Origin: Colwellia sp. M166
GTDB lineage: Bacteria > Pseudomonadota > Gammaproteobacteria > Enterobacterales > Alteromonadaceae
DNA length: 64,000 nucleotides
Direction: 5' to 3'
Assembly: GCF_024585285.1 (NCBI RefSeq)
Contig: NZ_CP040755.1
Location: 1,488,001-1,552,000, forward strand
In this document: one piece after another, positions 38,752-60,346 of the stretch
Layout of the letters: each line of letters starts with the position of its first letter
Position numbering within the stretch: position 1 is the first letter of the stretch
The notes under the pieces: model-generated
Databases searched by the model: none
What the model saw: the letters and a program-made list of their open reading frames with translations, nothing else
What the model was told of the DNA's origin: nothing
Position numbers and translations under genes: made by a program

Positions 38752-39711
38752 TTATTGAGAGTCACGTTTATTCGAAAACGGATGCGTCTTCTCATGTACT
38801 TTTTTCAGATGCTTAATGCTAACAAGGGCATATAATTGAGTACTGCTTATATCTTCATGCCCCAACTGTTCTTGAACAACTCGAATATCAGCACCATTCT
38901 CCAACATGTGGGTTCCAGTCGCATATCTCAGGATGTGACATGCTCCATCTTCTGAAACACCAGATCTACGCACGTAATCTCCTACCAATTCAGTTAGCTT
39001 ACTGCTAAGAATGCGTTTTCCTGTCATACCTAGAAACAATGCATCACCACTTTCAAATGTTGCTAATTCAGGTCTTACATTCTCAAGGTAGTCATTCAGT
39101 GCATCAATTGTTCTTTGCACAATTGGGATCGTTCTATCATAACTTCCTTTGCCTTTTCGAACTGTGACGGTTAACTTCTTAGCATCTACATGTCGAATAT
39201 CTAAATTAGCCAATTCATTTCGTCTAATGCCTGAAGCATAAAACACTTCAATGATAGCTCTATCTCGAATACCAATTTTTCCCTTAACCAATGCTTGGTT
39301 AATAATTAATTCAACTTGCTCTTCATCAGGAACGAATTTTGGTAACCGTCTTCCTGTTCTGGGCAACGTAAACTTAGAAAAGTAGTTATCAGTGATAATA
39401 TCGTAGTAAAACATTCGGTCTAAAAATGTTGTTAAGGCAATCAAACGTTGTGCCTGAGTAACAATCGACAAGGGTTCGTTATTTTTAGGTTTTCGATAGG
39501 CCGATACATATTTTCGATAATCTTCCATCACATATAAGTCAATGTCTTGAATACGTTCAATCCCCTGAGTCACTGCCCATCGGATAAACATTAAGACGAG
39601 GTTATTCTTCGTGTTAACGGTTGAATTGCTTTGACCTCTCGCCATACAGTCTTCGATGTAAAAAGCTAAACAGTCAGTTAATGTACTGAGTTTTTTAATT
39701 AATTCTTTCAT
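38752..39711 (-). CDS. Tyrosine recombinase/integrase of module A
   Basis: A 319-aa XerC/D-like site-specific recombinase. The N-terminal SAM-like core-binding domain spans residues 1-110. The catalytic domain has Arg 163 (ASGIRRNEL), Lys 188 (RKGKG), His 259 and Arg 262 (CHILR), His 285 (GHEDISS) and the nucleophile Tyr 294. Around the nucleophile the motif is LYALV instead of the common YTHV seen in copy B, and R262 is followed by Tyr instead of His; both may be tuned substitutions. It is the last gene of a minus-strand operon and starts one base after the upstream stop. The first 29 residues are identical to copy B. Confidence 0.9.
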   Translation of the reverse strand: MKELIKKLSTLTDCLAFYIEDCMARGQSNSTVNTKNNLVLMFIRWAVTQGIERIQDIDLYVMEDYRKYVSAYRKPKNNEPLSIVTQAQRLIALTTFLDRMFYYDIITDNYFSKFTLPRTGRRLPKFVPDEEQVELIINQALVKGKIGIRDRAIIEVFYASGIRRNELANLDIRHVDAKKLTVTVRKGKGSYDRTIPIVQRTIDALNDYLENVRPELATFESGDALFLGMTGKRILSSKLTELVGDYVRRSGVSEDGACHILRYATGTHMLENGADIRVVQEQLGHEDISSTQLYALVSIKHLKKVHEKTHPFSNKRDSQ

Positions 39712-40530
39712 ATTAGTTCACCATATAACGATGTGATGAATTGAGTAACTGCTGCAACTCATCTTTCGGGTTAATTTCCTGGGTAATGAAGCTATTCGCA
39801 TCAAAGCCGTTGGGGTATAACACCAGCATTACCGCGATGCGCTTTCTCTTAAGTAATTTTGCAATACGTCTAGCTTCAATTAACGTATTTTTTGTTGTCC
39901 CCATTGCTAAATAAATCGTTTTTATACCGTTATCCTTGAGTAACTTTGCATGTTGTTCATTGAAGTCACTACTCCCAATAGTAGAAATGGCATGAGTAAA
40001 ACCATTGACCCACCAACTCAGTGCATCAATGGGGTTTTTACAGTAAATGAGTTGCTCATTATCTTTTAAAGCGGTGCAATTAAAAAAGCCGATACCATCA
40101 GAGTACCAATGTCTATGGTAAATTTTTCTAGGTTTAGACTCTGTTGTTATACGCCTTCCATAGCAGCTAACAATATGCCCTTGTTGGTTTAATAAAGGAA
40201 AGGTAACAGCACCATAGAACAGTTCATGCCCTGTAGATTTTAATAGCCCTAAACGCTGTAATGCGCCTCGGCTTATCTCCTCATCATTTTTAGATAACTT
40301 TTGTAATTCAAGCCCTAACTTTCTATTGGAGAAACCTAAATTAAAATGTTCGATAACCTTATCGCTGTATATTGCTCTATTTTTAAGAAACTCTATCGCA
40401 TCAACAGATTGTAGTAATTCTTGATGATAAAACTTCATCGACATCTGAAGCATTGCATCATCACTAGACACCATGCTTAAACAGGCATCATCACTGGAAA
40501 GCGGATAGGCAATTCGCTCTCCAATGTTAA
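39626..40530. repeat. 905-bp near-identical block shared by modules A and B (copy A)
   Basis: This segment spans the 5' end of the recombinase gene and nearly all of the pseudo-Toprim gene. It matches 55158-56062 at an estimated 95% or more with no net indel. Similarity drops at both edges: recombinase proteins beyond it are roughly 75% alike, and the IstA and IstB proteins are very divergent. This points to recent gene conversion or module swapping between the two copies. Confidence 0.85.
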
Positions 40531-40558
40531 TCTTTGGTGTGATTTCAGAGTTATGCAT
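39713..40558 (-). CDS. DnaG/Toprim-like protein lacking catalytic residues (A1)
   Basis: A 281-aa protein. Residues about 45-165 resemble the DnaG RNA-polymerase basic domain: AIEFLKNRAIYSDKVIEHFN, LGFS, LQRLGLL and YGAVTFPLLNQQGHIVSCYG. Residues 168-240 resemble a Toprim fold (LIYCKNPIDALSWWVNG ... AISTIGSS ... KTIYLAMGTTKN). In active Toprim domains a Glu is expected at the CKNP position and a DxD where LAMG stands; both are absent. There is no CHC2 zinc domain. It is probably a DNA/RNA-binding or structural component rather than an active primase. It is nearly identical to its copy in module B. Confidence 0.72.
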   Translation of the reverse strand: MHNSEITPKINIGERIAYPLSSDDACLSMVSSDDAMLQMSMKFYHQELLQSVDAIEFLKNRAIYSDKVIEHFNLGFSNRKLGLELQKLSKNDEEISRGALQRLGLLKSTGHELFYGAVTFPLLNQQGHIVSCYGRRITTESKPRKIYHRHWYSDGIGFFNCTALKDNEQLIYCKNPIDALSWWVNGFTHAISTIGSSDFNEQHAKLLKDNGIKTIYLAMGTTKNTLIEARRIAKLLKRKRIAVMLVLYPNGFDANSFITQEINPKDELQQLLNSSHRYMVN

Positions 40559-40578
40559 TACCGAAAGTTCTACATCAA

Positions 40579-41316
40579 TTAAGCTTGATAGCGTTCATTG
40601 CGCATACCTACATTAGATAATGCACACGTTAAACGTTTATCAAACAACTGCCATTGAAAGGTATCCCATTCGCCAATATGCCGAGTAAGAAAAGGTAAAT
40701 TCACCTCACATAAAGTTATACCGTATCGTTGAGCAATATAACTTGCCTCAGCAATATCAAAGCTAACACCTAGTACACTGGTAAAATAAACGATGGTTGA
40801 TGTACCCAGTTGCTTTAACTCATCAATGGTCGTTTCTGACAAGCAGCTACCGAATTCACAAAAAGTATTTTTGTAGCCGTGTTCGTTAAAAGCAATCACA
40901 TCAAGTGGTGAATCACATTTGATAGCGACATTATCAAGCGCTTCTAGCGTGAAGATAGGCTGATAAATAGGATTAAATACAGAGCCAATACTGTCACTTT
41001 CTGTTGGTATTATTTTAAGTCCAAATAGTTCAACCGTATTATCGTCATATGCCAAAGGCAAAGTAATACAGCCTTTGAATAACGAATGTTCAAAGACTGC
41101 GGTATCACAATAACCAATGCTATAGGTAGATAGGCTCAGTTCATCAATACCCAGCATTTTTACAAGGTAGGTTTTTATTCTTGGGCAATGTGCTAAACAA
41201 TTACTATATTGTGCAACAAAACTGACAGGAACATTGCTAACGACAGAGTGACTATTTTCCACATGTGGATTTGAAAACGGTATTGAATGTTCAGTTGATA
41301 CAGATAAATTATTCAT
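40579..41316 (-). CDS. Second DnaG/Toprim-like protein, degenerate (A2)
   Basis: A 245-aa protein with the same outline as its downstream neighbour but strongly diverged: YLVKMLGIDELSLSTYSIGY, LFKGCITLPLAYDDNTVELF, then VAIKCDSPLDVIAFNEHGYK and TIVYFTSVLGVSFDIAEASY. The Toprim Glu and DxD positions are again replaced (CDSP and YFTS). Module B has no equivalent, so A carries an extra paralogue. A subunit with a role in target or replication-fork recognition is imaginable but unproven. Confidence 0.62.
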   Translation of the reverse strand: MNNLSVSTEHSIPFSNPHVENSHSVVSNVPVSFVAQYSNCLAHCPRIKTYLVKMLGIDELSLSTYSIGYCDTAVFEHSLFKGCITLPLAYDDNTVELFGLKIIPTESDSIGSVFNPIYQPIFTLEALDNVAIKCDSPLDVIAFNEHGYKNTFCEFGSCLSETTIDELKQLGTSTIVYFTSVLGVSFDIAEASYIAQRYGITLCEVNLPFLTRHIGEWDTFQWQLFDKRLTCALSNVGMRNERYQA

Positions 41317-41345
41317 CAGTATTTCCTCATTTAACGTTGTACTTA

Positions 41346-42074
41346 TTAGTGTGAAACTTTAGTAACTTCTCTAAACTTGAGTTCGCGCACGTTATCGCAT
41401 ACCAATTCGGTTAAGCGACTTGATAGCAACGGCTCATCTAAGCTATTCGCCCATTCTTGTATAGGTGGATCAGATGTAATAAGTAGTGAAAGAGATGGCA
41501 GAACCGTTTCCAAGAGTGAAAACAACAAGTACATATCAACCAGCTCTAACTCATCTAAATGCCAGTTGCTAAGCATCAATAGATCTAGTTTTGATAGTTT
41601 TTCAAATAATTCAGTTAATTCATTATTTTTCTGTGCTAAGCGCAGTTCGAAAATTAATTGATTAAACTCAAGATGTTCTGTTGGATGCATTTGTTCTATC
41701 GCATGATTGGCAAAGCCACAACCAAACTTAATTTTGTCTTTTCCTACTGAGCCATGAATAACTAGATGTTGTCCTTTGGCTATCCAATTTAACGAAAGCA
41801 AATGTTCAACTTGACTACGCTTAATACTGGGTTGCTGCTTTAAATCAAAATCAGAAACCTCAGCACACGGATAAGGCAATTTGGCTTGGCGCTTAAGTCG
41901 CTCTACCTTTTGAATATCCTGATTTTCACTGACAATATCGAGCATAGAGAAGAAAAACTCATCTTTACTCATTGGCTCAAATGAGGGTGATGAACGAAGG
42001 CGAACATAAGCTCGCCCAAGCCCTCCCATGCGAACATCTTTGCTACGGGAAATTATCGCTTTATTAGTGTACAT
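41346..42074 (-). CDS. istB: IstB-like transposition helper with degenerate ATPase motifs (A)
   Basis: A 242-aa protein in the istB position, overlapping the end of istA by 11 bases (ATGTACACTAA). The IstB outline is recognisable: LNWIAKGQHLVIHGSVGKDK, LSKLDLLMLSNWHLDELEL, then LLITSDPPIQEWANSLDEPL and LSSRLTELV. However, the Walker A GxxGxGKT is replaced by GSVGKDKI and the Walker B acids by SN. IstB normally uses ATP to choose the target and stimulate IstA, so this protein may work without ATP hydrolysis or with another partner. I set the start at the internal Met six codons into the longest frame because the overlap is conserved in module B. Confidence 0.72.
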   Translation of the reverse strand: MYTNKAIISRSKDVRMGGLGRAYVRLRSSPSFEPMSKDEFFFSMLDIVSENQDIQKVERLKRQAKLPYPCAEVSDFDLKQQPSIKRSQVEHLLSLNWIAKGQHLVIHGSVGKDKIKFGCGFANHAIEQMHPTEHLEFNQLIFELRLAQKNNELTELFEKLSKLDLLMLSNWHLDELELVDMYLLFSLLETVLPSLSLLITSDPPIQEWANSLDEPLLSSRLTELVCDNVRELKFREVTKVSH

Positions 42075-43620
42075 GGTGTTTTCTTCCTCCATTGTTATTT
42101 TGGGTTTGCTGTTGATATAACTGATAGGCTTCTTGAAGCCCTTCGTTCGAGGTTACATTGGCTTGTAAAGCGTCAGAGAAAGCAGTTACGGTTAAACGCC
42201 CAAGTGAAACCACCCACTGGCAAGTTTCTACGTATTTATCAAACTCACCTTTCTTAGCTAACCTTTGTATCTGCAAACAAGCCTTTCTTGCTTTATAATC
42301 AGGCTCTCCAGCGCCTTTGTATTGCGCTTCAACTAAAGTGACAACAGATGCATCAATTTGACTAGCCCATTCAATAAAATGCGCTTTATTTTGCTCAACG
42401 AGCACTCGATGATTCATGGGCATATGCTCTGGTTTCATTGAATCTCTCTCACCTTTTTTAAGGCGGGTATGAATACAAACAGTTTTGGTTTTGTATTTTA
42501 TTTCCACTTCATTTTTAGTAACAATAACGGTTACTTTTTGACCTTTTAAGTTTTCTGGTATCGAGTAATGACCACCCTCAAAGACAAATTTGTAATCTTT
42601 TTGAACCGTAATAACATGCGTTTCAATCGGGAGAGGAAAGCGTTTGCTGTTTAACTCTCTGAGTGCTTGTTGCTCACGAACTAAAAAGCGCTGTGTACTG
42701 GTATCATTCGTTTTAGGTGAAATTTTGTTATTGATTTCTTTAACCTTACTTTGAAGCCAAGTGTTAAAATCATCTAAATCTAAAAATGTAAGCTCTCGTG
42801 CATAAGCTAAAATAGCATCGACAAATTTTCTAACAGTTCGCTCAGCGCGATAGTTATATCGTGGACTTCGAATTGGAATATCAAAAGGAATAAAATCATA
42901 GTGTTCAGAGAACATTCGATACTGAGCCGTAATCTTTTTAGTGTTTTTTCTGCTTGTGCGTAAAGCTGCGGCATTGTCTGTTACAACAAAAACCGGAACA
43001 CCATTTACATCAATAAACACCTGCTCTATAAAATTGAGCCAAGATTCTTGGTTTTCATTAACATAGCCTTTCATGAACGCAAGATCTGAATCACCAAATG
43101 CACCTGCAAATAAACTAACGGGAATGTCCTTGTTTATCCCTATGTAAACTTTAGAGCCTGCGATATCGCAAAAGAAATAATCTCCAGGTGCTTTGAATTG
43201 CGTCATACTGCGATCAGAATCATCACGATATGATTTCAAGTCGTTGTAAAAGGTAGTACGACCAACGCCTAACGCACCATGTTCAAGTAAAAATTCGCGC
43301 CAATAATCTTCTTTCTTTAAATTTCCCTTTTCATGTGTTCTGTCATTTAACCGCTTATATACCTCAGCACAATTTGGACGGATCAAGTTTGATTTTCTAA
43401 ATGGATAATTAGGAAAAAGGCAGGTAATTAGCTCATCGTTATCAAGTGATTTAACCTTAGGCCATGTTAAACCAGCCGTTAAAGCAGACTTAAAGTAACG
43501 GCTTACCGTTTGGTGACTTACCTCTATATGTCGAGCTATTGCACGATTAGACCATGGAGATAAATACTTAAGCTTAAGCAAAAGTCGTGCTTTTTCGCCT
43601 GATATCATGTTTTTATCCAT
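42064..43620 (-). CDS. istA: IS21-family DDE transposase IstA (A)
   Basis: A 518-aa transposase. An N-terminal helix-turn-helix (WSNRAIARHIEVSHQTVSRY) is followed by a second DNA-binding region and an RNase H-like rve core. The three acids are visible: Asp at about 152 (YFFCDIAG), Asp at about 215 (VVTDNAAA) and Glu at about 260 (RYNYRAERTVRKF). A C-terminal beta-barrel (DYKFVFEGGHYSIPENLKGQ) matches the Mu/IS21 C-terminal domain. The start is set at the ATG at 43620; a TTG lies one codon upstream. Length is standard for IstA, and the catalytic core looks intact. Confidence 0.88.
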   Translation of the reverse strand: MDKNMISGEKARLLLKLKYLSPWSNRAIARHIEVSHQTVSRYFKSALTAGLTWPKVKSLDNDELITCLFPNYPFRKSNLIRPNCAEVYKRLNDRTHEKGNLKKEDYWREFLLEHGALGVGRTTFYNDLKSYRDDSDRSMTQFKAPGDYFFCDIAGSKVYIGINKDIPVSLFAGAFGDSDLAFMKGYVNENQESWLNFIEQVFIDVNGVPVFVVTDNAAALRTSRKNTKKITAQYRMFSEHYDFIPFDIPIRSPRYNYRAERTVRKFVDAILAYARELTFLDLDDFNTWLQSKVKEINNKISPKTNDTSTQRFLVREQQALRELNSKRFPLPIETHVITVQKDYKFVFEGGHYSIPENLKGQKVTVIVTKNEVEIKYKTKTVCIHTRLKKGERDSMKPEHMPMNHRVLVEQNKAHFIEWASQIDASVVTLVEAQYKGAGEPDYKARKACLQIQRLAKKGEFDKYVETCQWVVSLGRLTVTAFSDALQANVTSNEGLQEAYQLYQQQTQNNNGGRKHHVH

Positions 43621-43633
43621 CAATAATCTCCCT

Positions 43634-43766
43634 CAAGAAATCAGAGGATTTCTTGACAAAAGCTATAGCTTGACTAGTATTGATGGTGTCGGGTCTCAAA
43701 CGACAAAATCAAAACGTAGCCTCTTGTGTTAACCCACGAGGGGCTTTTTATTTGCGTCTCAAACGA
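43634..43766. promoter_or_regulatory. Structured region between the DNA-binding gene and istA (A)
   Basis: Three structures are packed in 133 bp. A perfect 9-bp inverted repeat CAAGAAATC/GATTTCTTG (43634-43655) lies just before istA. A direct repeat GTCTCAAACGA occurs at 43693 and 43756. Between the repeats a 10-bp stem with TTAACC loop (43719-43744) is followed by T5 on the plus strand. It may act as operator plus attenuator for istA. Module B has an equivalent arrangement with different sequences. Confidence 0.6.
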
Positions 43767-43771: not shown

Positions 43772-44053
43772 TCAATTCATATCTTTACCTTCTACTTTTT
43801 GAATATTATCCGTAGCCTGTAGCGCCATAAAACGAGCCACTTCTACCGTTAACGCAAAATGTCCCCTGCGGTTTGGTATTTTAAAGACGGGAATAGGAAA
43901 TATGCCTTTACTAACAGCTTGATGAATAGCAGCAGTGCTGGAATAGTTCATGGCTTTTTTCAAATCACTGACGGTTAGAATTGGTGTCCCAAATAACTTA
44001 AGTAAATCGCACTCGATTTTCTTTGTTAACGCTTTAAGCTCTATCTCTGTCAT
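43772..44053 (-). CDS. Small AlpA/excisionase-like DNA-binding protein (A)
   Basis: A 93-aa protein with a predicted helix-turn-helix: LFGTPILTVSDLKKAMNYSS then TAAIHQAVSKGIFPIPVFKI. A conserved PNRRGHFALTVEVARFMALQ tail follows. The pattern recalls AlpA/Xis-type winged-helix proteins that regulate integrase genes or steer excision. The copy in module B aligns along its full length. It is divergent from the unknown gene at 44138 with an 84-bp shared promoter region. Confidence 0.72.
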   Translation of the reverse strand: MTEIELKALTKKIECDLLKLFGTPILTVSDLKKAMNYSSTAAIHQAVSKGIFPIPVFKIPNRRGHFALTVEVARFMALQATDNIQKVEGKDMN

Positions 44054-44137: not shown

Positions 44138-44947
44138 ATGGAAAATAATAAAACCACGAATAAGGGTAATAACTCCTTAAAAAGACAAGCGAATATTGCT
44201 AACTATGCGAGGCAAGAAGAAGGTGTTCTCTTAACTGAATCTAATACTTTGTCTTTTAATAAAAAAACTCTCGCTTGCAAAGCATGGAATAACAGTGGCT
44301 ATAAATCGTTATCAAATGAGATCAGATCTATGTCATCTCAGTTTGCACTTTTGGAATACATGAATCGTAATAATATCAATTCTCTAGAGGAACTTTATCC
44401 AAGGTTAAAACAGGAACAAATAACAACAGAAAATGAAATAAGGAATGGAGATTACAGAAAGAGGTTAACTGGCACAGCCTTATCAAAAGTTAGCTTCAGA
44501 AACTTCAACAAAGCCACTAATTATCGCTGCTACTCAACACTGAATCATTGCTTATGGCTTTTACTACAACAAAACTCTTTATTGCTCACCAAGCCTTTCA
44601 AAATTATCAACGCGCTTCCAAAATCAATCAGACTTCAACTTATCACCAAACCAATATATAAGAATTCAACTTTTAGTGACTTAAGATCCGTAGTAAAACA
44701 ATCCTACAAGCAACAACGTATTTCTTTTTACCTTTTAAACAATCTCGATGGGTTCACGGCTTTATTAATAACAGTCATTTTTCAGCTAATCATTTGGCAA
44801 CAAACTAGACCAACAAATGCAGAGTTGTTAGCTGGCAAAATGTTTAATGAATTATTTGAAGTAAAGTTTCCATTAGCAAAAGCAGAAGTAATGAAAATAA
44901 AAATAGAAAGCCTTTTAAAATTTTACGAAGATCGAAGACAGCATTAA
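44138..44947 (+). CDS. Conserved element protein of unknown function (A)
   Basis: A 269-aa basic protein divergent from the rest of the module. It is similar at low level to the 312-aa protein at the same place in module B. The best conserved stretch is LDGFTALLITVIFQL with TRPTNAELLAGKMFNELF, which in B reads LDSLTALLIIAIYQQ with ARPTHAEKCAFELFIKLF. No known domain is recognised. It lies about 100 bp before the inverted TGGTC array, so it could bind it; this is inference. Confidence 0.65.
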   Translation: MENNKTTNKGNNSLKRQANIANYARQEEGVLLTESNTLSFNKKTLACKAWNNSGYKSLSNEIRSMSSQFALLEYMNRNNINSLEELYPRLKQEQITTENEIRNGDYRKRLTGTALSKVSFRNFNKATNYRCYSTLNHCLWLLLQQNSLLLTKPFKIINALPKSIRLQLITKPIYKNSTFSDLRSVVKQSYKQQRISFYLLNNLDGFTALLITVIFQLIIWQQTRPTNAELLAGKMFNELFEVKFPLAKAEVMKIKIESLLKFYEDRRQH

Positions 44948-45396: not shown

Positions 45397-45729
45397 ATGA
45401 TGGATAAGACGATGAACACGATAGTTTCAGACTGGAAAATTGTTTCTGTTATGGACGATAACGAATTGGTTGGTAAAGTTATTTATGCGACTGTAGTTGA
45501 TGATATGACTTGCCGTTTTTTTAAAGGTGATTATGTATGTACTTCTAGCATCGAATCAATCAGCATAAAAAGCCAAATGATCTTCACTGAAAGCGGCAGT
45601 ATTTATCAACTAATAGGTAATGGCTCAAAGGCCAAAATTGATATGAAAGATTTTGAGTTACTACGCAACGGCTTCAGCCCAGAGATGATCAACCAACTCA
45701 ATTTGACACCAAACGACTATTTTCACTAA
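45397..45729 (+). CDS. Small hypothetical protein between array and 34-bp repeat (A)
   Basis: A 110-aa acidic protein (about one third hydrophobic beta-strand-like residues, ending NQLNLTPNDYFH). No family is recognised and no signal or membrane helix is seen. In module B an unrelated 161-aa gene occupies the same slot between the array and the 34-bp repeat. A second Met five codons in may be the start. It may be cargo. Confidence 0.55.
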   Translation: MMDKTMNTIVSDWKIVSVMDDNELVGKVIYATVVDDMTCRFFKGDYVCTSSIESISIKSQMIFTESGSIYQLIGNGSKAKIDMKDFELLRNGFSPEMINQLNLTPNDYFH

Positions 45730-45739
45730 GTGGCAGATA

Positions 45740-45773
45740 GGCAAAACCAGCTTCCGCTGGCTTTGAGAGCAAA
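45740..45773. repeat. 34-bp hairpin repeat, copy A
   Basis: The sequence runs GGCAAAACCAGCTTCCGCTG and then GCTTTGAGAGCAAA. It contains the stem CCAGC/GCTGG (extended by AAA/TTT) with a TTCC loop. An identical 34-base copy lies at 60837 in module B, each time 5-10 bp after a plus-strand stop and before the end of a minus-strand operon. It may serve as bidirectional terminator and as a fixed boundary for the cargo to its right. Confidence 0.85.
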
Positions 45774-50061: not shown

Positions 50062-50162
50062 AGCTATTTCCTTTTATTAATTCAATACCACTATATAACT
50101 TCCCTCAATTTACGAAGTATCTGAATCAGATTTAATTATTGAAATTTCAGTTACCCAAAAAC

Positions 50163-50450: not shown

Positions 50451-51131
50451 CTAATTTCCATTTCCACTAACATTGACAGGTAGGTTACTAATAACTCCAC
50501 CAACAGTATTCCCAATAGTCACACCACCAGTTATCAGATGAGAGTTAGGAAGTCCATGCAATGCATTGGAACTTAAAAACAACTGTTGAGATAGAGGAAG
50601 TGAATTAAAGTATGATTGATTCATTTTTGAAATAATACCAGACGTACCATTTCCTACACCCGATCCCAATCCACCAAAAACAAATCCATTTAAAAATGAG
50701 TTTTCAATACTATCACAACTTCCAGTTAGCTCATTTTTACTTGCAGTTACGGCTGCGCCAATAGCACCACTACCAAATGCATTTGCAGCGATATTTTTCC
50801 CCCATGATAATCCCTTGGTTAGGTTACCAAGACCTCCACCTAAAGCACCTGTTGCTGTTGATGCTGCAAACGATCCCCAATCAAAAGGACCGTCAGAATT
50901 ATATTGTGACCAGGCATTCAAACCTCCACCAATAACACCTCCTACAACACACCATGGGCACAAACCACTCGGATCTGAATAGGATATAGGATTCCCACCA
51001 ACATACCCATAAGTATTAATACCACCCGCTAAACCAATCGGGTCACTTTGAATATAGCGCCCCAATTCGGGGTCGTAATCCCTAAAGTAGTTGTAAACTA
51101 ATTTAGCTTCTAGGTGTGGTTTTACCTGCAT
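50451..51131 (-). CDS. Orphan Rhs C-terminal tip (B)
   Basis: A 226-aa protein that starts at the same place in the Rhs core as tip A ([40 protein letters not shown], then DPSGLCPWC). The tip that follows is Gly/Ala/Ser-rich ([50 protein letters not shown]), a pattern typical of the pre-toxin region of polymorphic toxins. The last 50 residues have no recognised nuclease or protease motif. Full Rhs core and N-terminus are missing, so it is a displaced tip that needs recombination or another delivery route to function. Confidence 0.78.
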
Positions 51132-52456: not shown

Positions 52457-53431
52457 TTAACTATCAAACTTAACTAATTGCCTATGAATTATACCCATGG
52501 ATTCTATTAGAGATTCTTTTGAAGGAATATCTTCCCCCACAACCATCGCTTTGAAGTCACCATTGTATGTACTTTCAAGAGAAGGCCAGATTTCTGCTAA
52601 GCTAGAAAATACACAAGCGCTAGCTAGTGGCACATCAAACCACGGTGTTGACTTAAAAGTTTCTTGGTCACAAGCAATAACTTTAGCTGTCATTTCACCA
52701 AAGCTGGCTGACTCAACAAATTCACAGGTAAATTTATCGGCTATTAAAAAGTGAACATCATATAAATGTCTAATTTTACTGTTAATTTGGTTAATATGAT
52801 TTTCACCGTAAGAGGCTTTAACCAATCCCATAACTTTTTCACAAACAGTACGAGATGTACAAAGTACGTTCATTTCAAACGTTTCAAGCCCAAATTCAGA
52901 TACGGCAGACTCTTGTCCACTGTTAATAAAAAAATCAGCTATATAACAAGAAAGAGGCATTTTGCTGTACGGTTCAGGATCAGCGAATGCGTTTATCTCC
53001 AATAATAAGCTATCTTCGATTTGACCTTCAACTGGCGCTGATTCATCGATTCTTGGGTATTGAAATCTAATTTTTCTAAAGTGTGAGTTTTTAGAAGTAT
53101 CAGGAGAGTCTATTTCATTAAATATATCAGAGATATCTGAAATTATTTTACTAGCCTTCTTAACTTTTCTACCTGCTTGAGCTTTACTTAAGTTATCTGT
53201 TAATACAGCTATATCTACATCTTCTGAAAACCTAGAAATCATACTGTAAGCTTTACTTAAAGAAGTACCGCCCTTAAAAACAATTTCATCACAAATATCT
53301 GATGAAGCGAGTTCCTTTAATGCATAAGTTACCCAATAATCTTTTTCGACATATTCTATTGGCAAAGATAAATGTTTTGCTGTCGCTCGTATTGCTTCCT
53401 CTAGAGCTTTTTTGTCTTCGTGTAATAACAC
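52457..53431 (-). CDS. abiEii: AbiEii-family nucleotidyltransferase toxin
   Basis: A 324-aa protein of the nucleotidyl-transferase AbiEii/AbiGii toxin family. The motif VFKGGTSLSKAYSMISRFSE then DVDIAVL contains the GGTSLSK element and the metal-binding Asp pair (DVD). Downstream ELIA-type helices and RKIRFQYPRI are typical. AbiEii inactivates tRNA by adding nucleotides and is paired with AbiEi. The gene starts 12 bp after the AbiEi stop, so they form an operon in which the antitoxin is first. Confidence 0.88.
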   Translation of the reverse strand: MLLHEDKKALEEAIRATAKHLSLPIEYVEKDYWVTYALKELASSDICDEIVFKGGTSLSKAYSMISRFSEDVDIAVLTDNLSKAQAGRKVKKASKIISDISDIFNEIDSPDTSKNSHFRKIRFQYPRIDESAPVEGQIEDSLLLEINAFADPEPYSKMPLSCYIADFFINSGQESAVSEFGLETFEMNVLCTSRTVCEKVMGLVKASYGENHINQINSKIRHLYDVHFLIADKFTCEFVESASFGEMTAKVIACDQETFKSTPWFDVPLASACVFSSLAEIWPSLESTYNGDFKAMVVGEDIPSKESLIESMGIIHRQLVKFDS

Positions 53432-53443
53432 ACATATTCCTTT

Positions 53444-54184
53444 TTATTTTTTGTTATAGATCAGATGCCAGTGCTTTTGAGCTTTTTCCCATTTATAGGC
53501 ATAGGAGAAATAGTATTTAGATGTAGGGTTCAATGAATCTCGCAATTTATCGCTAAAATGATTCATATACGTCTCTAAAATAAAGCCCAGAATTGCTTTG
53601 GTTCTTTCGGGGTAATTATCAATTGCTATTTTTTCCATTTCCTTGATTGATTTAGAAGAATATTCCTTAAGCTTTATTGAAAGCTTATTTGTTACTTCTT
53701 TTGTATCAGCATCTGGAATGCGATCAATATTTTTAAGAACGTCTAAAAATTGAAGTATTTCAATGTTGTTCTTAGTTACTTTGTGCTGTGCAGGTGACGT
53801 AGAAACCCTAAGACCAGATAGCTCAGCCTTCTCTCGTTTATTTGTTGAAGTTGCAATATTCACTTCTGCTGGAATTTGAGTAGTTAATCCCCATCGGTAA
53901 TACAATGCAGGACCTGTTACATAACCAACCGTTCTATTTTTACGGGAGGTGAAGTAATTAATAACATCATTATCTTTAGGAGCCATTGGACCAAAACGAC
54001 CAATTTCAGACTTATAAAATAAGCCTTTTTTGATTTTCACTAAACCCAACTTTTTTGAATTTCTACTGATTGCTTTTACAACAGCATCACTGTGCTCTGC
54101 ATAGCTAAAGATATCCTGATAAGAAAATAACTTACCCGGTTTCATCTGATCTATTTGTTGATTAACTGATTTAGTGACGTTCAT
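53444..54184 (-). CDS. abiEi: AbiEi-family (DUF6088) antitoxin/regulator
   Basis: A 246-aa protein of the DUF6088/AbiEi type. The N-terminal winged helix (SYQDIFSYAEHSDAVVKAIS, KKLGLVKIKKGLFYKS) binds the operon promoter in AbiE systems. The middle has NRTVGYVTGPALYYRWGLTT QIPAEVNIAT in two parts, the typical conserved core. It neutralises or represses the toxin encoded next. Together they form a type IV toxin-antitoxin and abortive-infection pair. Confidence 0.85.
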   Translation of the reverse strand: MNVTKSVNQQIDQMKPGKLFSYQDIFSYAEHSDAVVKAISRNSKKLGLVKIKKGLFYKSEIGRFGPMAPKDNDVINYFTSRKNRTVGYVTGPALYYRWGLTTQIPAEVNIATSTNKREKAELSGLRVSTSPAQHKVTKNNIEILQFLDVLKNIDRIPDADTKEVTNKLSIKLKEYSSKSIKEMEKIAIDNYPERTKAILGFILETYMNHFSDKLRDSLNPTSKYYFSYAYKWEKAQKHWHLIYNKK

Positions 54185-54298: not shown

Positions 54299-55243
54299 TT
54301 ATTTTGCAAATGGATGTGTTTGCTTATGCACTTTTTGTAAATCATTGATAACCACATGGGTATAAAGTTGGGTACTGCTGATATCTTCATGGCCTAACAT
54401 CTCTTGCACATAACGAATATCGGCACCATTACGCAACATATGTGTCCCTGTAGCATGTCTAAGTAGGTGACACGCGCCTTCTTCTGCCACACCCGATCTG
54501 CGAATATATTCACCGACAAGCTCGGTTAATTTACTGCTCAATATTCGCTTGCCTGTCTCACCTAAGAAAAGCGCATCACCGCTGGCAAATATTGCCAATA
54601 ATGGGCGAACTTTTGTTAGGTACTCGTTGATAGCATCTACAGTACGTTGAACAATAGGTACAACTCTATCGTAACCGCCTTTACCTTTTCTTACAGTGAT
54701 CGTAAGGTTTTTAGTATCAACATGACGAATATCCAAATTGGCAAGTTCAGTACGTCTAATACCCGATGCATAGTAAATTTCGAGTATAGCTTTATCTCGA
54801 ATACCAATGTTTCCCTTCGTTTTAGTTTGGTTGATTATTAGCTCAATCTCTTCCTCATCAGGAATAAACTTAGGCAACCGTCTACCAGTACGAGGCAGTT
54901 CAAACTTAGCGAAGAAGTTATCCGTGATAATATCGTAATAGAACATTCTCTCCAGAAACACTCTCAAAGCTATTAAACGCTGAGCTTGTGTAACAATTGA
55001 AAGTGGCTCTTGATTTTTAGGTTTTCGATAAGCTGATAAATAGCGTCTGTATTCTTCCATCACAAACAAGTCAACGTTTGATATTTTCGTTATTTGTTTC
55101 GTTGCTGCCCAACAAATGAACATAAGCATCAAATTGTTCTTTGAAGTGATAGTCGCGTTGCTTTGACCTCTCGCCATACAGTCTTCGATGTAAAAAGCTA
55201 AACAGTCAGTTAATGTACTGAGTTTTTTAATTAATTCTTTCAT
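54299..55243 (-). CDS. Tyrosine recombinase/integrase of module B
   Basis: A 314-aa recombinase, co-linear with copy A. All catalytic residues are present: Arg 163 (ASGIRRTEL), Lys 188, His 259 and Arg 262 (CHLLRHATGTHML), His 285 (GHEDISS), Tyr 294 in the standard LYTHV context. The first 29 residues are identical to copy A; the rest is an estimated three quarters identical. It is the last gene of the minus-strand operon and starts 1 base after the pseudo-Toprim stop. Confidence 0.9.
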   Translation of the reverse strand: MKELIKKLSTLTDCLAFYIEDCMARGQSNATITSKNNLMLMFICWAATKQITKISNVDLFVMEEYRRYLSAYRKPKNQEPLSIVTQAQRLIALRVFLERMFYYDIITDNFFAKFELPRTGRRLPKFIPDEEEIELIINQTKTKGNIGIRDKAILEIYYASGIRRTELANLDIRHVDTKNLTITVRKGKGGYDRVVPIVQRTVDAINEYLTKVRPLLAIFASGDALFLGETGKRILSSKLTELVGEYIRRSGVAEEGACHLLRHATGTHMLRNGADIRYVQEMLGHEDISSTQLYTHVVINDLQKVHKQTHPFAK

Positions 55244-56062
55244 ATTAGTTCACCATATATCGATGTGATGAATTGAGTAATTGCTGCAATTCATCTTTCG
55301 GGTTAATTTCCTGAATAATGAAACTATTCGCATCAAAGCCGTTGGGGTATAACACCAGCATTACCGCGATGCGCTTTTTCTTAAGTAATCTTGCAATACG
55401 TCTAGCCTCAATTAACGTATTCTTTGTTGTCCCCATTGCTAAATAAATCGTTTTTATACCGCTATCCTTAAGTAACTTTGCATGTTGTTCATTGAAGTCA
55501 CTACTCCCAAGAGTGGAAATGGCATGAGTAAAACCATTGACCCACCAACTCAGTGCATCAATGGGATTTTTACAGTAAATGAGTTGCTCATTATCTTTTA
55601 AAGCGGTGCAATTAAAAAAGCCGATACCATCAGAGTACCAATGTCTATGGTAAATTTTTCTAGGTTTAGACTCTGTTGTTATACGTCTTCCATAGCAGCT
55701 AACAACATGCCCTTGTTGGTTTAATAAAGGAAAAGTAACAGCACCATAGAACAGTTCATGCCCTGTAGATTTTAATAGCCCTAAACGCTGTAATGCGCCT
55801 CGGCTTATCTCCTCATCATTTTTAGATAGCTTCTGTAATTCAAGCCCTAACCTTCTATTGGAGTAACCTAAATTAAAGTGCTCAATAACGTTATCGCTGT
55901 ATATTGCTCTATTTTTAAGAAACTCTATCGCATCAACAGATTGCAGTAATTCTTGATGATAAAACTTCATCGACATCTGAAGCATGGCATCATCACTAGA
56001 CACCGTGCTTAAACAGGCATCATCACTGGAAAGCGGATAGGCAATTCGCTCTCCAATGTTAA
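55158..56062. repeat. 905-bp near-identical block shared by modules A and B (copy B)
   Basis: Partner of 39626-40530. Sharp edges on both sides, with a few scattered substitutions and no net length change, suggest recent conversion or exchange. Confidence 0.85.
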
Positions 56063-56093
56063 CCCTATGTGGGACTTCGTTGTTAAACATCAA
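55245..56093 (-). CDS. DnaG/Toprim-like protein lacking catalytic residues (B)
   Basis: A 282-aa protein nearly identical to the A1 copy except for the first 10 residues. The same substitutions occur at the Toprim positions (CKNP for the Glu, LAMG for the DxD), so the loss of catalysis is conserved rather than accidental. The primase-like basic domain (residues 45-165) is kept. It starts 3 bp after the IstB-like stop. Confidence 0.72.
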   Translation of the reverse strand: MMFNNEVPHRVNIGERIAYPLSSDDACLSTVSSDDAMLQMSMKFYHQELLQSVDAIEFLKNRAIYSDNVIEHFNLGYSNRRLGLELQKLSKNDEEISRGALQRLGLLKSTGHELFYGAVTFPLLNQQGHVVSCYGRRITTESKPRKIYHRHWYSDGIGFFNCTALKDNEQLIYCKNPIDALSWWVNGFTHAISTLGSSDFNEQHAKLLKDSGIKTIYLAMGTTKNTLIEARRIARLLKKKRIAVMLVLYPNGFDANSFIIQEINPKDELQQLLNSSHRYMVN

Positions 56094-56096: not shown

Positions 56097-56828
56097 CTAC
56101 TTACTTTCAACAAGATTCAAATGATGACAGTAAGGCAATATGTGTTGGGCCAGCATTTGACCAACTAACCCAATGCCATTACCGCTTGTAATTTCATCTT
56201 CTAACGGACTCTTGCTAATAAGGATAAAGCCACCTTTTTCACTACGCGTTTTGATCAAAGATGCAAGAATATAGGCTTCTTTAATGGAAAGTATATTTAA
56301 CTCGAAGTTATCGAGCATCAGTACATCAATGACCTCAAGCGGCTTTAGTGCTGATTGCAAAAGACTCTTAGCGTCTGCTACCAGTAAATCTTGTAGCATT
56401 TCTTTCATCTCTTTAAATAGAACGGAAATTCCCTTATCTATTAATTCATTGCCAAAAGCGCTCACCAACTCCAGCCGCGCTTTAGATGGCTCTCCATGGA
56501 TAATGATAGAGTCACCTTCTTTTAACCAAGCACCACGGCTTAAATATTCAAAATATTTATGATTAAATTGCCCGATAGGATATTGCTCAATATCAGCATA
56601 GCGAATGCTCGTATATGGCAGGTTAGCGGCTTTACGATACTTTTGTGTCTTATCAACTAGCTTATTGCAGTGAATAGCATCTAGAACAACGATTAGGTTT
56701 TTCTGAAAGCCAACTAAGTCAAATTCTTTATCAAGTGCAGCTCCATCCATACCGCCAATAAACGCACTGTATCGCAATGTTTTACACATTGACCTAACTG
56801 TTGAGTCTAACGTGGAATTAGTGTGCAT
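56097..56828 (-). CDS. istB: IstB-like transposition helper with degenerate ATPase motifs (B)
   Basis: A 243-aa protein starting inside the end of istA (ATGCACACTAA, the same overlap as in A). The IstB outline is present (LSRGAWLKEGDSIIIHGEPS, VIDVLMLDNFELNILSIKEA, GGFILISKSPLEDEITSGNG). The Walker A region reads GEPSKARL, without GKT, and Walker B reads LDN. It is very divergent from the A copy but degenerate at the same motifs. The start was chosen at the internal Met 29 codons into the longest frame. Confidence 0.68.
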   Translation of the reverse strand: MHTNSTLDSTVRSMCKTLRYSAFIGGMDGAALDKEFDLVGFQKNLIVVLDAIHCNKLVDKTQKYRKAANLPYTSIRYADIEQYPIGQFNHKYFEYLSRGAWLKEGDSIIIHGEPSKARLELVSAFGNELIDKGISVLFKEMKEMLQDLLVADAKSLLQSALKPLEVIDVLMLDNFELNILSIKEAYILASLIKTRSEKGGFILISKSPLEDEITSGNGIGLVGQMLAQHILPYCHHLNLVESK

Positions 56829-58371
56829 GATGTTCTCCCTGTGAACCTTGTTGCATTTGCTGATAACAAGCAAATGACTCTTGAATATCGTCATCATCCA
56901 ACTTAGCAACTTCAATCATTGATTCTAATGCGCTAATGCTTAATCGATTACTGGCTTGGCACATTAAACAGCCCACAACAAATTCTTCAGCAAACCCTTC
57001 TTTCACCGAGTTTTCTAACACGCGTTTTAAAGTATTGCATTGCTCTCTGGCATAGAAATCACGTTCAGATACATCAGAGTAAAATTCTTCGACAAAAGGA
57101 ATTAATGACGGCTCTTCTTTTTTTGCCCAAGCCAAAAAATAAGTTTTGTTTTCGCTTCTCAACACCTTATGCTCTGGCGGCATATGCTCAATCAGCATGG
57201 CATGCGCATCACCCGATTTTCGTCTGGCATGGCTATAGCTAAGTTCACCGTTATGCTTAATATCAACCTTATCTGGGTAAATATAAATCTGCACTTTTTT
57301 ACCAAACAGCTTGTGGTCAATTGAATAGTATATTTGGTCAACTTTGACTCTATAATGCTTGTCAACCGTAACTGTACGCTGTCCTGTAGGCACAATAAAA
57401 GATATTGGATTTATCTCTCTAAACGATGGTTTTTCTTCTTCGAATAGCTCATCGCGTGATTCAGCGCGTCCCGTTAATGGTCGCTTATTAATCGCAGACA
57501 CCAACCAATCCAAACAGTCGTTAACCTCTTCTACCGAGTTAAAAGACATTTCGCTTAAATAAGGATAAATCTCATTATTAAAAATTTTCACTGCTATTTC
57601 AGCCGCATAGTTGTAATTCGGGCTTGCTGGTGGAGATGGATATGCAATAGCGTCTTGATGCTTACAAAATTGCTCATAACCTTTTGTGAGCTTCAGATGG
57701 GGTTTTGGTGTTGTCACCAAAGGTTTTGCATTATCAGTGATGATAAATTTAACGACACCATTTATTTGAATAAATATCCATTGCATGAAATCAAGCCAAT
57801 CTTTCTGTTTCTGATGTGTGGTCGCACGAATGAATATTTTCTTTGAATAACCTAAAACACCGGCAATAAAGTATACGTAATGCCTATTTTTTTCAGGGCC
57901 GATAGATAAACGAAGGCCAGCATAATCAATATACAAACGTTCTCCAGGGTTTTCTATGATAGTTAGTGCAAATTTAGGGTTATTCAGTGCAGCCTTAACC
58001 CCTGCATAATAGGTAGACTCTGCAACTGCATTAGCTTCACCGACTGCTTTTACATAAGCTCTGTAATGAAATCGAATATTGGGCTTACCCTTTCTACCTT
58101 TTGTACTAGATATCAGGTTTGCAACTTCCTCATATTGAGGTAACGTAAACCTTGATTGATGCGGAGGTCGCCCAGTGAGAAGAATTTTTGTCGCATCACT
58201 TAAGGGCAAATCTTTTACATCATGGTAAGAAATGCCTTTTTCTGTCCATGCATTTATTTTTCTGCCTACTGCTTGATGACTAATACCTAAATACTCACCA
58301 AGCTTACGGTATGACCATTGTGTTAATAACCACAGTCTTAACAACTCAATCCAAATATCAATTTTAATCAT
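56818..58371 (-). CDS. istA: IS21-family DDE transposase IstA (B)
   Basis: A 517-aa transposase with an N-terminal helix-turn-helix (WSYRKLGEYLGISHQAVGRK). The catalytic acids are Asp 149 (RLYIDYAG), Asp 213 (FIITDNAKP) and Glu 258 (NYNYAAEIAVKIF). The C-terminal barrel (DKHYRVKVDQIYYSIDHKLF) is present. It ends in a His-rich GEHHAH overlapping istB, as in A (KHHVH). Sequence identity to copy A is low, so the two modules carry transposases of different lineages. Confidence 0.88.
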   Translation of the reverse strand: MIKIDIWIELLRLWLLTQWSYRKLGEYLGISHQAVGRKINAWTEKGISYHDVKDLPLSDATKILLTGRPPHQSRFTLPQYEEVANLISSTKGRKGKPNIRFHYRAYVKAVGEANAVAESTYYAGVKAALNNPKFALTIIENPGERLYIDYAGLRLSIGPEKNRHYVYFIAGVLGYSKKIFIRATTHQKQKDWLDFMQWIFIQINGVVKFIITDNAKPLVTTPKPHLKLTKGYEQFCKHQDAIAYPSPPASPNYNYAAEIAVKIFNNEIYPYLSEMSFNSVEEVNDCLDWLVSAINKRPLTGRAESRDELFEEEKPSFREINPISFIVPTGQRTVTVDKHYRVKVDQIYYSIDHKLFGKKVQIYIYPDKVDIKHNGELSYSHARRKSGDAHAMLIEHMPPEHKVLRSENKTYFLAWAKKEEPSLIPFVEEFYSDVSERDFYAREQCNTLKRVLENSVKEGFAEEFVVGCLMCQASNRLSISALESMIEVAKLDDDDIQESFACYQQMQQGSQGEHHAH

Positions 58372-58532
58372 TTTTCTTGCCTCTCATTAGAGGCGCAAAA
58401 ACCTATCGCACACTTGCAAAAACCTGCAAATGTACTACAGTTGAATTGTCTGCTTTCAAAAGACAATTCTGCAAAGGCCCACTGTGTTAGAGCACTTCGG
58501 GTCTTTGTTATTTCTGCGCCAGTTAAAATTCG
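58372..58532. promoter_or_regulatory. Structured region between the DNA-binding gene and istA (B)
   Basis: It contains a direct repeat GCAAAAACCT (58395 and 58416) and a perfect 9-bp inverted repeat GAATTGTCT/AGACAATTC (58443-58469). A weaker hairpin GGCCCACTGTG ... CACTTCGGGTC with TTAGAG loop follows at about 58476-58503. The architecture parallels the same interval in module A (repeat pair, 9-bp dyad, hairpin with GTGTTA at the loop side), although the sequences differ. Confidence 0.55.
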
Positions 58533-58802
58533 TCACATCTTCTTATTTTCCATCTCGACAACAGCGCACTGCGCCATATACCTTGCTACCTCTGCAACCA
58601 AGACAAAGTAGCCCCTACGATTTGGCTGTGAGAATATCGGTATGGGTAACGTCCCCCTTAATAGGGCTTGGCGCATTGTTGCAACACTTCGATAGTTCAG
58701 TGCCTTATGCAATTGCTCAAGATTTAAAATGGGCGAGCCATAAAGCTTTAATAAATCAGCTTCTAACTTTTCTCGTAATTCATTGAGTGCTTCTTCGCTC
58801 AT
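58533..58802 (-). CDS. Small AlpA/excisionase-like DNA-binding protein (B)
   Basis: An 89-aa protein (LEADLLKLYGSPILNLEQLH, YRSVATMRQALLRGTLPIPI, PNRRGYFVLVAEVARYMAQC) aligned end to end with the 93-aa protein of module A. I set the start at 58802 because homology begins there; a longer frame extends upstream without support. It probably controls the divergent promoter or the direction of recombination. A TGGTCT motif occurs upstream at about 58842. Confidence 0.72.
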   Translation of the reverse strand: MSEEALNELREKLEADLLKLYGSPILNLEQLHKALNYRSVATMRQALLRGTLPIPIFSQPNRRGYFVLVAEVARYMAQCAVVEMENKKM

Positions 58803-58969
58803 GTCTGCTTCAGTCGTGTTCAGTAAGGTAATAATTAAGTATTGGTCTAGACTTTGGTTACAGCCAGTGTGTTTTTTGAATGATAGAAACAAGAATAAAT
58901 AATGTAAGGCACTGAAAAGTAGTGATTCTGCTAAAAACGAACAGATGAATAAAAAGTAAATTAAATACG

Positions 58970-59908
58970 ATGTACAATTTTACCGCCTACAAAAAACTTC
59001 CCAAATATGTGCAGTCATTAGCTACGCAACACTTCTTGTTGGAGTGGTTATTTTCTTTAAATGATAAGCAAGAGAAGACGCTAAACTTGATGCAAAGGCT
59101 CAGAGCGTTAAGGATTAAAATAATTGAAGACGCTCATATTTCTACTACCGCTAGATTCAGCCCCTCTCCGCTGAAGTTGTTGACGTATCTAGACAGTGAA
59201 ATTAACTCGCGATATTGGCGCGTAAAGCTAAAAGGCAAACCGATTGTGAGTAAGTTTAAGTTTTCCCGGTTGATGCAGCTTACAAACTATCAGCCTATCT
59301 ATACCGATAAAGCCTTCTTTATACTGTTGAGTCAGCCTAATACAGCAAGTCAAAACCTTGCTCCTGCAATCAATGCACTTTCATTACATATAAAAGATAT
59401 GCTTTTGAGCAAGCAGGCAAGGAAACATTGGCATTTACCAGCAACAGCAGCCGATGAACTATCAACGATTATTAATCGCAAGTACGCTTGGCATATTGAT
59501 GAACTTTGCAATACCTACACGTTAGATAGTTTGACTGCATTACTCATTATTGCCATTTACCAACAAAATGAGCTTCAAGAAGCAAGACCAACGCATGCTG
59601 AAAAGTGTGCCTTTGAACTTTTTATAAAGTTATTCGCCATTAAATATTGTCCGAGCAATACACCTAAAATTGGTTTTGGTATTGCTCAGTTATTGATAGC
59701 TTTATCAGCTCACTCAAATGAACAAGAAAAGGAGTTCGTTACGCCAACTGTTAAACATTTCGATCATCTATTAGGTTCACTGAGTGAGACAAACATCACG
59801 CTGAAACGAGACTTTAAATTTGACCAAAAAGTATTGGATGAGAGTTTATTAAATTTTGATGACTCGAAATATTTAAATCAAAAAGAATTAGGCTTTCTGA
59901 TCAAGTAA
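58970..59908 (+). CDS. Conserved element protein of unknown function (B)
   Basis: A 312-aa protein divergent from the module operon and related to the 269-aa protein of module A by the motif LDSLTALLIIAIYQQ ... ARPTHAEKCAFELFIKLF. The N-terminal half differs and the C-terminus is longer. There is no recognised domain, signal or membrane helix. The array of TGGTC sites begins 37 bp after the stop. Confidence 0.65.
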   Translation: MYNFTAYKKLPKYVQSLATQHFLLEWLFSLNDKQEKTLNLMQRLRALRIKIIEDAHISTTARFSPSPLKLLTYLDSEINSRYWRVKLKGKPIVSKFKFSRLMQLTNYQPIYTDKAFFILLSQPNTASQNLAPAINALSLHIKDMLLSKQARKHWHLPATAADELSTIINRKYAWHIDELCNTYTLDSLTALLIIAIYQQNELQEARPTHAEKCAFELFIKLFAIKYCPSNTPKIGFGIAQLLIALSAHSNEQEKEFVTPTVKHFDHLLGSLSETNITLKRDFKFDQKVLDESLLNFDDSKYLNQKELGFLIK

Positions 59909-60346
59909 CCCACCTTTATTTTTAATTTTATTTATTATTTCAAATGGTCCAATAATTTTAGAATGCTGTATTGCTATTTTTAGAATCACTGGTCTATTTC
60001 TCTTGGAATCTCTGTACAGAGATCCTGCTTTTTTTGAGACAAGCCTCTATGTTGACAGAGACACTTTCTACTAATAACGGACCAGTATGATTCTATGGTT
60101 TAGGACCATTACTTTTATTGAAATTAAAACTCAACAAAGTTAAAAACATAACTAACAATGTAGATATATTTTACATTAAATTAATTAGTTACGGGATTTT
60201 CAAGGTAGAAGTTAACTTTACCACTTATGAAAGTGAAAGACTATTTAGGCGCTAAAATCATATCAATCCTGCCATCAAATTCTTGGTAATATTACCCGTA
60301 AATTTTTATCATAGGTACTCGGCTCATGATCACAAGGTAGTAGGAA
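59909..60346. other. Intergenic region with TGGTC array (B)
   Basis: About 440 bp containing the array at 59945-60108 and an AT-rich stretch that probably contains the promoter of the 161-aa gene (ribosome-binding site AGGTAGTAGGAA before 60347). No gene was recognised. Confidence 0.6.
59945..60108. repeat. Inverted array of TGGTC sites (B)
   Basis: Forward arm: TGGTCC at 59945 and TGGTCT at 59990 (45 bp apart, exactly as in A), with a weak TGTATT at 59967. Reverse arm: TGGTCC on the complement at 60108 and 60084, with a weak TGTCTC at 60063. Total 164 bp versus 163 bp in A, while the intervening sequence differs. A perfect 16-base palindrome ATCTCTGTACAGAGAT (60008-60023) lies near the middle. 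Confidence 0.7.

Follow-up and report, generated by a model that had tools for sequence, protein, structure and literature searches.

The IS21 family of insertion sequences carries istA and istB only, and transposons of the Tn402/Tn5053 type have the set TniA-TniB-TniQ-TniR. TnpI of the Tn4430 type is a tyrosine recombinase paired with a DDE transposase, and Gamma-Mobile-Trio islands are defined by the protein trio GmtX, GmtY and GmtZ. Here a module of five operon genes is described which occurs twice within a 64,000-nucleotide stretch of the Colwellia sp. M166 genome (the window; G000:C1:1488001-1552000 within 4.84 Mb). Both copies encode, on one strand, an XerC-like tyrosine recombinase (Xer), one or two DnaG-derived proteins (Top1, with Top2 in copy A), IstB, IstA and a small helix-turn-helix (HTH) protein, accompanied by a divergent gene, Div. 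With a probability of about 0.7, the module is the transposition operon of IS21-type unit transposons carrying anti-phage defence and toxin-immunity genes. The unit transposon has an IS21-type engine in a Tn402-like layout.

As in IS21, the gene of a DDE transposase overlaps or adjoins that of an AAA+ helper, and relatives show 5-8-bp target duplications, subterminal repeats and junctions of right end and left end (RE-LE). A DDE IstA encoded together with an IstB-like helper is present in both window copies, but the ATPase motifs of IstB are lacking in both, and instead of two genes only there are extra genes conserved across 26 modules, with whole elements of 8.7 and 24.7 kb. The four-part layout of DDE transposase, AAA+ protein, third protein and site-specific recombinase is shared with Tn402/Tn5053, as is the carriage of cargo; unlike in those transposons, the third protein is derived from a primase, the recombinase is a tyrosine rather than a serine enzyme and the DDE transposase is of IS21 type. 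At E 0.1, none of the module proteins of the window matched TniQ or a serine resolvase (TniR) in Pfam.

Clades 2 and 3 of the Tn7-like transposons carry tyrosine or serine resolvases and, as far as the consulted part of that account goes, also combine a DDE/AAA+ transposon with a resolvase and defence cargo (PMC8649781). They differ in having TnsB and TnsC where the module has IstA and IstB, and no TnsA or TniQ match was found in the module. Tsy elements, according to the part of their description consulted, are driven by their own active tyrosine recombinases, target comM and are likewise mobile elements that encode a small HTH protein; that part mentions no DDE transposase (PMC10293859). Gamma-Mobile-Trio islands, in the consulted part of a paper citing them, are mobile islands mixing toxins and phage defence (PMC12715929); the copy A proteins and three of copy B gave no match named after them in an NCBIfam library presumed to include such models. 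The composition had been called unrecognised in an earlier note on this DNA. No description of IstA, IstB, a tyrosine recombinase and Toprim together was found in a search mostly outside subscription journals and partly at title or abstract level. The pairing of a DDE transposase with a tyrosine recombinase is, however, not new, since tyrosine resolvases beside DDE/AAA+ proteins are known in Tn7-like transposons (PMC8649781, in part). No description was found, in that search, of such a pairing conserved around IS21-type genes together with a dead primase, Div and an RNA.

Recurrence and movement in relatives

In all, 26 modules that have four or all five of the operon genes in the same order were found, in 23 genomes or plasmids; 21 are tabulated, including the two of the window, and the others are L100, L101, L110, L115 and L204. 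Each gene found in the 21 tabulated modules keeps order and strand, and all five were called in 18, the HTH gene being split or missing in L053 and L066 and the contig of L054 ending before Xer. The HTH gene was also not called in L100. The loci were drawn by primase-like matches and so do not represent an unbiased census: that search matched 186 of 295 relatives, mostly at the length of the housekeeping DnaG, while others that were fetched yielded more modules (the short-frame matches G102, G206 and G226:1895886 lie outside the examined set). All six named genome contigs confirmed by primase-like alignment hold the module (three Pseudomonas, one Reinekea and two metagenome-assembled genomes), as does the Pseudomonas aeruginosa plasmid pPUV-9. 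Across the modules, the identity of IstA to its best query falls as low as 26%. The gene order common to both window copies was confirmed from sequence and recurs, with strand, in 24 further modules. An explanation in which the recombinase and Toprim genes are chance neighbours of an IS21 copy fails on these conserved neighbours and on the whole elements found within target duplications.

The element of pPUV-9 measures 24,684 bp (L184 13498-38181) and lies inside a gene whose counterpart on pPUV-4 is uninterrupted; its 8-bp target duplication, CAAGGGGG, was read off two BLAST rows (pPUV-9 against pPUV-4). A 16.7-kb query matched 108 plasmid records, three of which hold most of it, pPUV-4 being the one other inspected. 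The ends carry a 33-nt subterminal inverted repeat identical at 32 of 33 positions, and were not found in six other loci in which they were sought. Among the cargo of this element are LmuA/LmuB, AbiEi and a Fic protein. The element of G163, 8.7 kb long, has (G)CTATG on either side, a 5-6-bp duplication; the right flank of this site occurs in ten of 19 genomes of the genus, G163 included, and of the other nine with this flank seven have the site uninterrupted. Empty sites, which the earlier note had proposed to look for, are therefore represented by pPUV-4 and by these seven relatives. IS21 elements have TG-type ends and target duplications of 4-8 bp, and both of these relatives end in TG...TA. 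In G086 and G380, the right end abuts the left end at three places with 2 bp between them; the ends were placed by the authors, and one junction is seen across only 9 bases of the right end. Such tandem RE-LE junctions are typical of IS21 dimers. As read from sequence comparison, these duplications and junctions are hallmarks of IS21-like DDE transposition.

These data bear directly on a reading in which the recombinase is the sole engine of an integrative element and IstA/IstB an old IS21 insertion retained for another role. Relatives with a primase-like protein and XerC in which no IstA or IstB was found, one of them on an 11-kb circular plasmid, would favour it, as would the degenerate IstBs of the window, but the target duplications and empty sites of the relatives speak against it, together with a DDE triad kept in 21 of 21 copies. 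The sequence comparisons largely refute it for pPUV-9 and G163, and overall it is very improbable.

Under the unit-transposon reading, IstA (DDE) and IstB (AAA+) insert the whole element with its cargo, generating a 5-8-bp target duplication, as sequence comparison shows for the two relatives. By analogy with Tn402/Tn5053 and the resolvase-bearing Tn7-like transposons, transposition would be replicative and the XerC-like enzyme would resolve cointegrates or tandem copies. The DnaG-derived protein would bind DNA or IstB as an adaptor, and the HTH protein, Div and a divergent small RNA would probably control the operon.

The module proteins and a putative small RNA

The two modules of the window are laid out as follows.

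38752-39711, minus strand: Xer, XerC-like tyrosine recombinase, copy A (Phage_integrase, 122 bits)
39713-40558, minus strand: Top1, DNAG_N/Toprim pseudo-primase, copy A (DNAG_N 1.3e-10, Toprim_2 3e-7)
40579-41316, minus strand: Top2, second primase-like protein, copy A only (dnaG model E 0.0065; no Pfam match)
41346-42092, minus strand: IstB-like AAA+ protein, copy A (IstB_IS21 2.6e-25; Walker A degenerate, GSVGKDK)
42064-43623, minus strand: IstA-like DDE transposase, copy A, TTG start (NF033546, 131 bits)
43653-43681, plus strand: promoter-like boxes of the putative small RNA, copy A (TTGACA, 17 nt, AGTATT)
43682-43750, plus strand: putative small RNA, copy A, two hairpins, on the strand opposite the operon (z -4.68; covariation)
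43772-44053, minus strand: small HTH (PrtN-like) protein, copy A (49% identity to copy B in alignment A6)
44138-44947, plus strand: Div, divergent gene, copy A (26% to copy B, E 5e-10)
54299-55243, minus strand: Xer, XerC-like tyrosine recombinase, copy B (77.4% to copy A)
55245-56093, minus strand: Top1, DNAG_N/Toprim pseudo-primase, copy B (94.0% to copy A)
56097-56915, minus strand: IstB-like protein, copy B (IstB_IS21 4.4e-15; Walker A lost, GEPSKAR)
56818-58371, minus strand: IstA-like DDE transposase, copy B (Mu-transpos_C_2, rve; DDE kept)
58414-58442, plus strand: promoter-like boxes of the putative small RNA, copy B (TTGCAA, 17 nt, ACAGTT; assigned by hand)
58443-58509, plus strand: putative small RNA, copy B (z -5.56)
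58533-58892, minus strand: small HTH (PrtN-like) protein, copy B (PyocinActivator 0.0012, below cut-off)
58970-59908, plus strand: Div, copy B (related to copy A by blastp)

Between the two copies identity is a mosaic, from Top1 (94.0%) and Xer (77.4%) through HTH (51.7%) to IstA (31.0%), Div (28.6%) and IstB (23.3%). The transposases do differ strongly, as had been noted, but the divergence is uneven along the module; likewise, the Toprim-like protein or proteins ascribed to both copies amount to two primase-like genes in copy A and one Toprim-like gene in copy B. The dS of the Top1 pair is 0.13, and that of the Xer pair is saturated with a dN/dS of about 0.04. Xer looks to be under purifying selection in the window, and Top1 looks to have been exchanged recently.

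Xer of copy A scored 306 bits against NCBIfam model PRK01287, under the cut-off of 371. Residues R163, K188, R262, H285 and Y294, which with H259 we take to be catalytic positions of tyrosine recombinases, are present in 20 of 20 aligned sequences, and H259 in 16 of 20. Against integrase_gron the score was 102.5 bits for a cut-off of 265, which does not qualify Xer as an IntI-type integrase or the module as an integron; attC sites were not searched.

The AF2 model of Top1 from copy A (pLDDT 85.5) has the fold of the DnaG RNA polymerase domain (5guj, E 1.6e-15). In all 22 rows of alignment A1 the family has a lysine in place of the Toprim glutamate and no DxD, presumably the catalytic acidic residues of primases, and by this sequence criterion Top1 is a pseudo-primase. 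A homologue of Top2 lies at the equivalent place in L056 (27.7%). Two primase-like genes occur in 5 of 21 modules, and 7 of 21 have only the DNAG_N half of 159-163 aa. Because the acidic residues are lost and these seven are so reduced, it is more likely that the primase-derived protein serves as an adaptor, binding DNA or IstB, than that it makes primers. Simpler elements were also seen in L010-L014, each with XerC and a large protein of DnaG_N/Toprim type, which in four of them has a CHC2 zinc finger; three of the five elements adjoin polymorphic or secreted toxin genes, and that of Lonsdalea populi is on the 11-kb circular plasmid. Their large proteins retain DxD in 5/5, and the pattern for the glutamate motif matched 0/5. 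When viral contigs were scanned with A1, 27 stretches matched a pattern, none encoding a relative, and phages gave just four weak primase matches.

The IstA triad (D153, D216 and E261) is kept in 21 of 21 full-length module copies, one 129-aa fragment being set aside. Walker A of IstB is present in 19 of 21 modules, the two exceptions being the window copies. It should also be noted that the whole genome G000 has 34 rve domain matches and is thus rich in insertion sequences.

Div is divergent to the HTH gene in 19 of 23 modules checked (not in L051, L058, L066 and L100). The 19 Div proteins are joined by blastp at E 0.001 or better, mostly through weak matches, and the AF2 model of Div had no match in the PDB at E 0.001. 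The HTH profile matched 5 of 369 genomes of the class and 6 of 398 of the phylum, the own genome being in both counts and all belonging to the same class. Nine regions were fetched from HTH matches and the full module was present in L204 only; L201 and L202 have HTH-Div-IstA and L197 HTH alone, all three ending at contig ends, and L198, L199 and L200 have HTH alone. In L203 the HTH gene adjoins a Tn7-like operon (TnsA-like, rve and TniB Pfam matches), a further link to those transposons, and in L196 HTH and Div stand beside an apparent Tn7-like operon, AAA_22 being the only confirmed match there.

The gap between the HTH gene and istA contains, on the opposite strand, two hairpins and promoter-like boxes, the second hairpin being terminator-like. 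TTGACA was found in 20 of 25 such gaps (a count made without a control) and TTGACT in L052; the −35 box was assigned by hand for window copy B, L059, L067 and L101, and a 17-nt spacer was presupposed for the −10 boxes. The folding energy of eight of eight gaps tested was better than that of all 200 shuffles (z -4.4 to -8.0), the terminator hairpin contributing. Over 12 sequences, 86.9% of cells in the two-hairpin structure were paired against 75.8% when shuffled, with 34 double-change cells against 13.1 and a covariation score of 0.433 against 0.241, values reached by 0 of 500 shuffles for each of the three measures; further pair types numbered 28 against 24.3, which 23 of 500 shuffles reached. 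This consensus was set by hand on the 12 sequences, and the covariation of hairpin B depends on it, RNAalifold on a MAFFT alignment of 24 sequences giving hairpin A only.

A model, R1, was built from the same 12 sequences, window copies included, and gave copy A 54.5 bits and copy B 51.9 bits as training members. Its strong matches at the exact gap (L099, L110, L144 and L184) are near-copies of training sequences. Independent matches at the exact gap were weak, namely L052 (0.010), L115 and L068 (0.011, the two being 98% alike) and L059 (0.014), and weaker still in L060 (0.14), L067 (0.31) and L065 (0.69); a second search added L201/L202 (0.00066) and L204 (0.0019). R1 missed the modules L057, L058, L066 and L100, and matched places without a module in L109 (0.006), L061 (0.22), L202:3516 (0.0015) and L198 (0.012), that in L109 outscoring the independent module matches of the first search. 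Given these misses and module-less matches, the claim is carried by position and structure and not by score alone. The conserved structure is probably a small RNA, which may be an antisense regulator. Rfam at gathering thresholds gave no match over the window. Hairpin A was considered as a core site for Xer and rejected, its spacer varying from about 8 to 12 nt by eye. A role of the RNA as direct insertion guide found no support: seven comparisons (two insertion sites plus ends) gave one 9-nt match above the 95% shuffle level, which was judged to be chance.

Weighing the state of the window copies

Several observations count against the unit-transposon reading. IstA and IstB of copy A score below the equivalog cut-offs (131.2 bits against 160 for NF033546, and 107.9 against 200, respectively), and both window IstBs are without Walker A and Walker B. 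The HTH marker alone is unspecific, with all five genes in one of nine regions, three of them cut by contig ends. The window units are bounded by 36-bp direct repeats and no terminal repeats were found: chosen non-coding stretches held no inverted-repeat pairs of at least 19/24 (ten shuffles gave 0-4), and local alignment of candidate ends gave, in 15 comparisons, two above the 20-shuffle maximum, by 3 points. No resolution site was identified.

The window copies could accordingly be dead remnants kept as neighbours of useful defence genes, as the lost IstB Walker motifs and the lack of ends found around the units would suggest. Yet the operon reading frames are open in both copies, Xer is apparently under purifying selection, Top1 was apparently exchanged recently, and the Walker A loss of the copy-A-type IstB is common to its three close relatives found (P0022-P0024); we consider this explanation unlikely. 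The working system proposed earlier is upheld for the module, which is conserved and in relatives was inserted as whole elements, but the window copies themselves look partly degenerate. With the ATPase motifs of IstB gone and no transposon ends found, they may be unable to move alone.

RHS context and cargo

The two units, of 13.6 and 13.5 kb, form a tandem pair close to the isc operon, behind a split RHS gene (64166-69304 in extended coordinates). Under the unit-transposon reading, two elements would be stacked here, each having brought an orphan RHS tip and defence genes. The remaining features are the following.

36528-36563, plus strand: att-like direct repeat of 36 nt at the outer end of unit A (same sequence as 50160-50195; unrelated flanks)
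36882-37415, minus strand: orphan RHS tip of unit A (88.8% to unit B over a 277-column RHS-core block)
37710-38645, plus strand: cargo AbiD (PADLOC AbiD 1.3e-56)
45397-45729, plus strand: X_A, DUF6957 gene (PF22275 7.6e-9)
45739-45773, plus strand: D9, 35-nt terminator-like repeat, copy A side (identical to 60836-60870)
50160-50195, plus strand: att-like direct repeat of 36 nt separating units A and B (identical to 36528-36563)
50451-51131, minus strand: orphan RHS tip, unit B (RHS-core block shared with unit A)
52457-54184, minus strand: cargo AbiEii and AbiEi (PADLOC 2e-86 and 1.6e-41)
60347-60832, plus strand: X_B, gene in the place of X_A (no Pfam match)
60836-60870, plus strand: D9, 35-nt repeat, copy B side (identical to 45739-45773)
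60888-63539, minus strand: cargo LmuB-like ATPase (PADLOC LmuB 5.5e-29)
63655-63690, plus strand: att-like repeat behind the parent RHS gene (1 mismatch)

The 36-bp repeats resemble RHS-cassette terminators at which the units would have been joined, perhaps by Xer. There is a two-part alternative, in which IstA/IstB spread the element to new sites and Xer integrates units site-specifically at such terminators, building arrays, with the primase-like protein perhaps presenting folded single strands to Xer. Allowing up to 3 mismatches in 31 nt, the att repeat occurs at just three places in the 4.84-Mb genome, and on neither side are its flanks related. Its relatives occur in 48 of 395 genomes of the family (19 of 52 genera), against 0 for a reversed-pattern control among the rows listed, and 38 of 40 att sites (22 loci, one more edge-dropped) lie within 3 kb behind an RHS core, compared with 817 of 4400 random positions. 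The block with the LmuB cargo (60883-63691) is 83.6% identical to L101 and stops at att, and L115 is a compact 7.9-kb element with a conserved repeat half at both ends. In the arrays of L099, L101 and L116, att relatives end short RHS tip cassettes. However, an identical pattern would arise from terminators shared by descent if homologous recombination took place at RHS cores; att also occurs in genomes without a module match, the G163 element is without a GAGGCTTTGGATTCAA-type att, and no before-and-after pair was found at an att junction. Site-specific integration by Xer is therefore possible but doubtful.

Arrays of short orphan RHS tip and immunity cassettes, many closing in a shared terminator-like repeat, were observed in L099, L101, L102 and L116, and L068 and L115 have relatives of X_A close to att. 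An inverted duplicate of 1.54 kb in G056 was considered as an att cassette and rejected, since it is an IS-like sequence lying within att and flanked by a 9-bp duplication; this IS-like element sits in att twice, in opposite orientations (L068 84-1623 and L106 6688-8226). The terminator behind fdx is repeated at window positions 31421 and 35338 and at about 70600 in extended coordinates (L018), the terminator copy at fdx being about 90% alike, and this repetition suggests that the isc operon is a hot spot of integration into which the entire RHS island has settled. Repeated matches also occur at the corresponding locus in several genomes of the genus, and a serine-recombinase-like frame, named by eye, lies between the RHS gene and fdx (extended 69625-70431, L018).

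According to the part of the account by Faure et al. (2023; PMC10293859) that was consulted, no target selector had been reported for IS21. It is decidedly unlikely, though conceivable, that the module is an IS21-type transposon with a co-opted selector, in which the dead primase adaptor and Xer, perhaps with the small RNA as a structural or guiding component, determine that defence and toxin cargo is inserted and stacked at the terminators of toxin genes; if true, the target-selecting apparatus would make this the first IS21 system with a target selector.

The module marks a sparse, little-described family of bacterial mobile elements with anti-phage and toxin-immunity cargo. Beyond the two IS21 genes its operon has a dead primase, two accessory proteins and a tyrosine recombinase whose active-site residues are intact, along with a probable small RNA, and it offers a direct test case for how accessory proteins get recruited to DDE/AAA+ transposases. 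It is also a concrete vehicle for the spread of defence islands, relatives having moved defence and toxin genes whole, including onto a P. aeruginosa megaplasmid.

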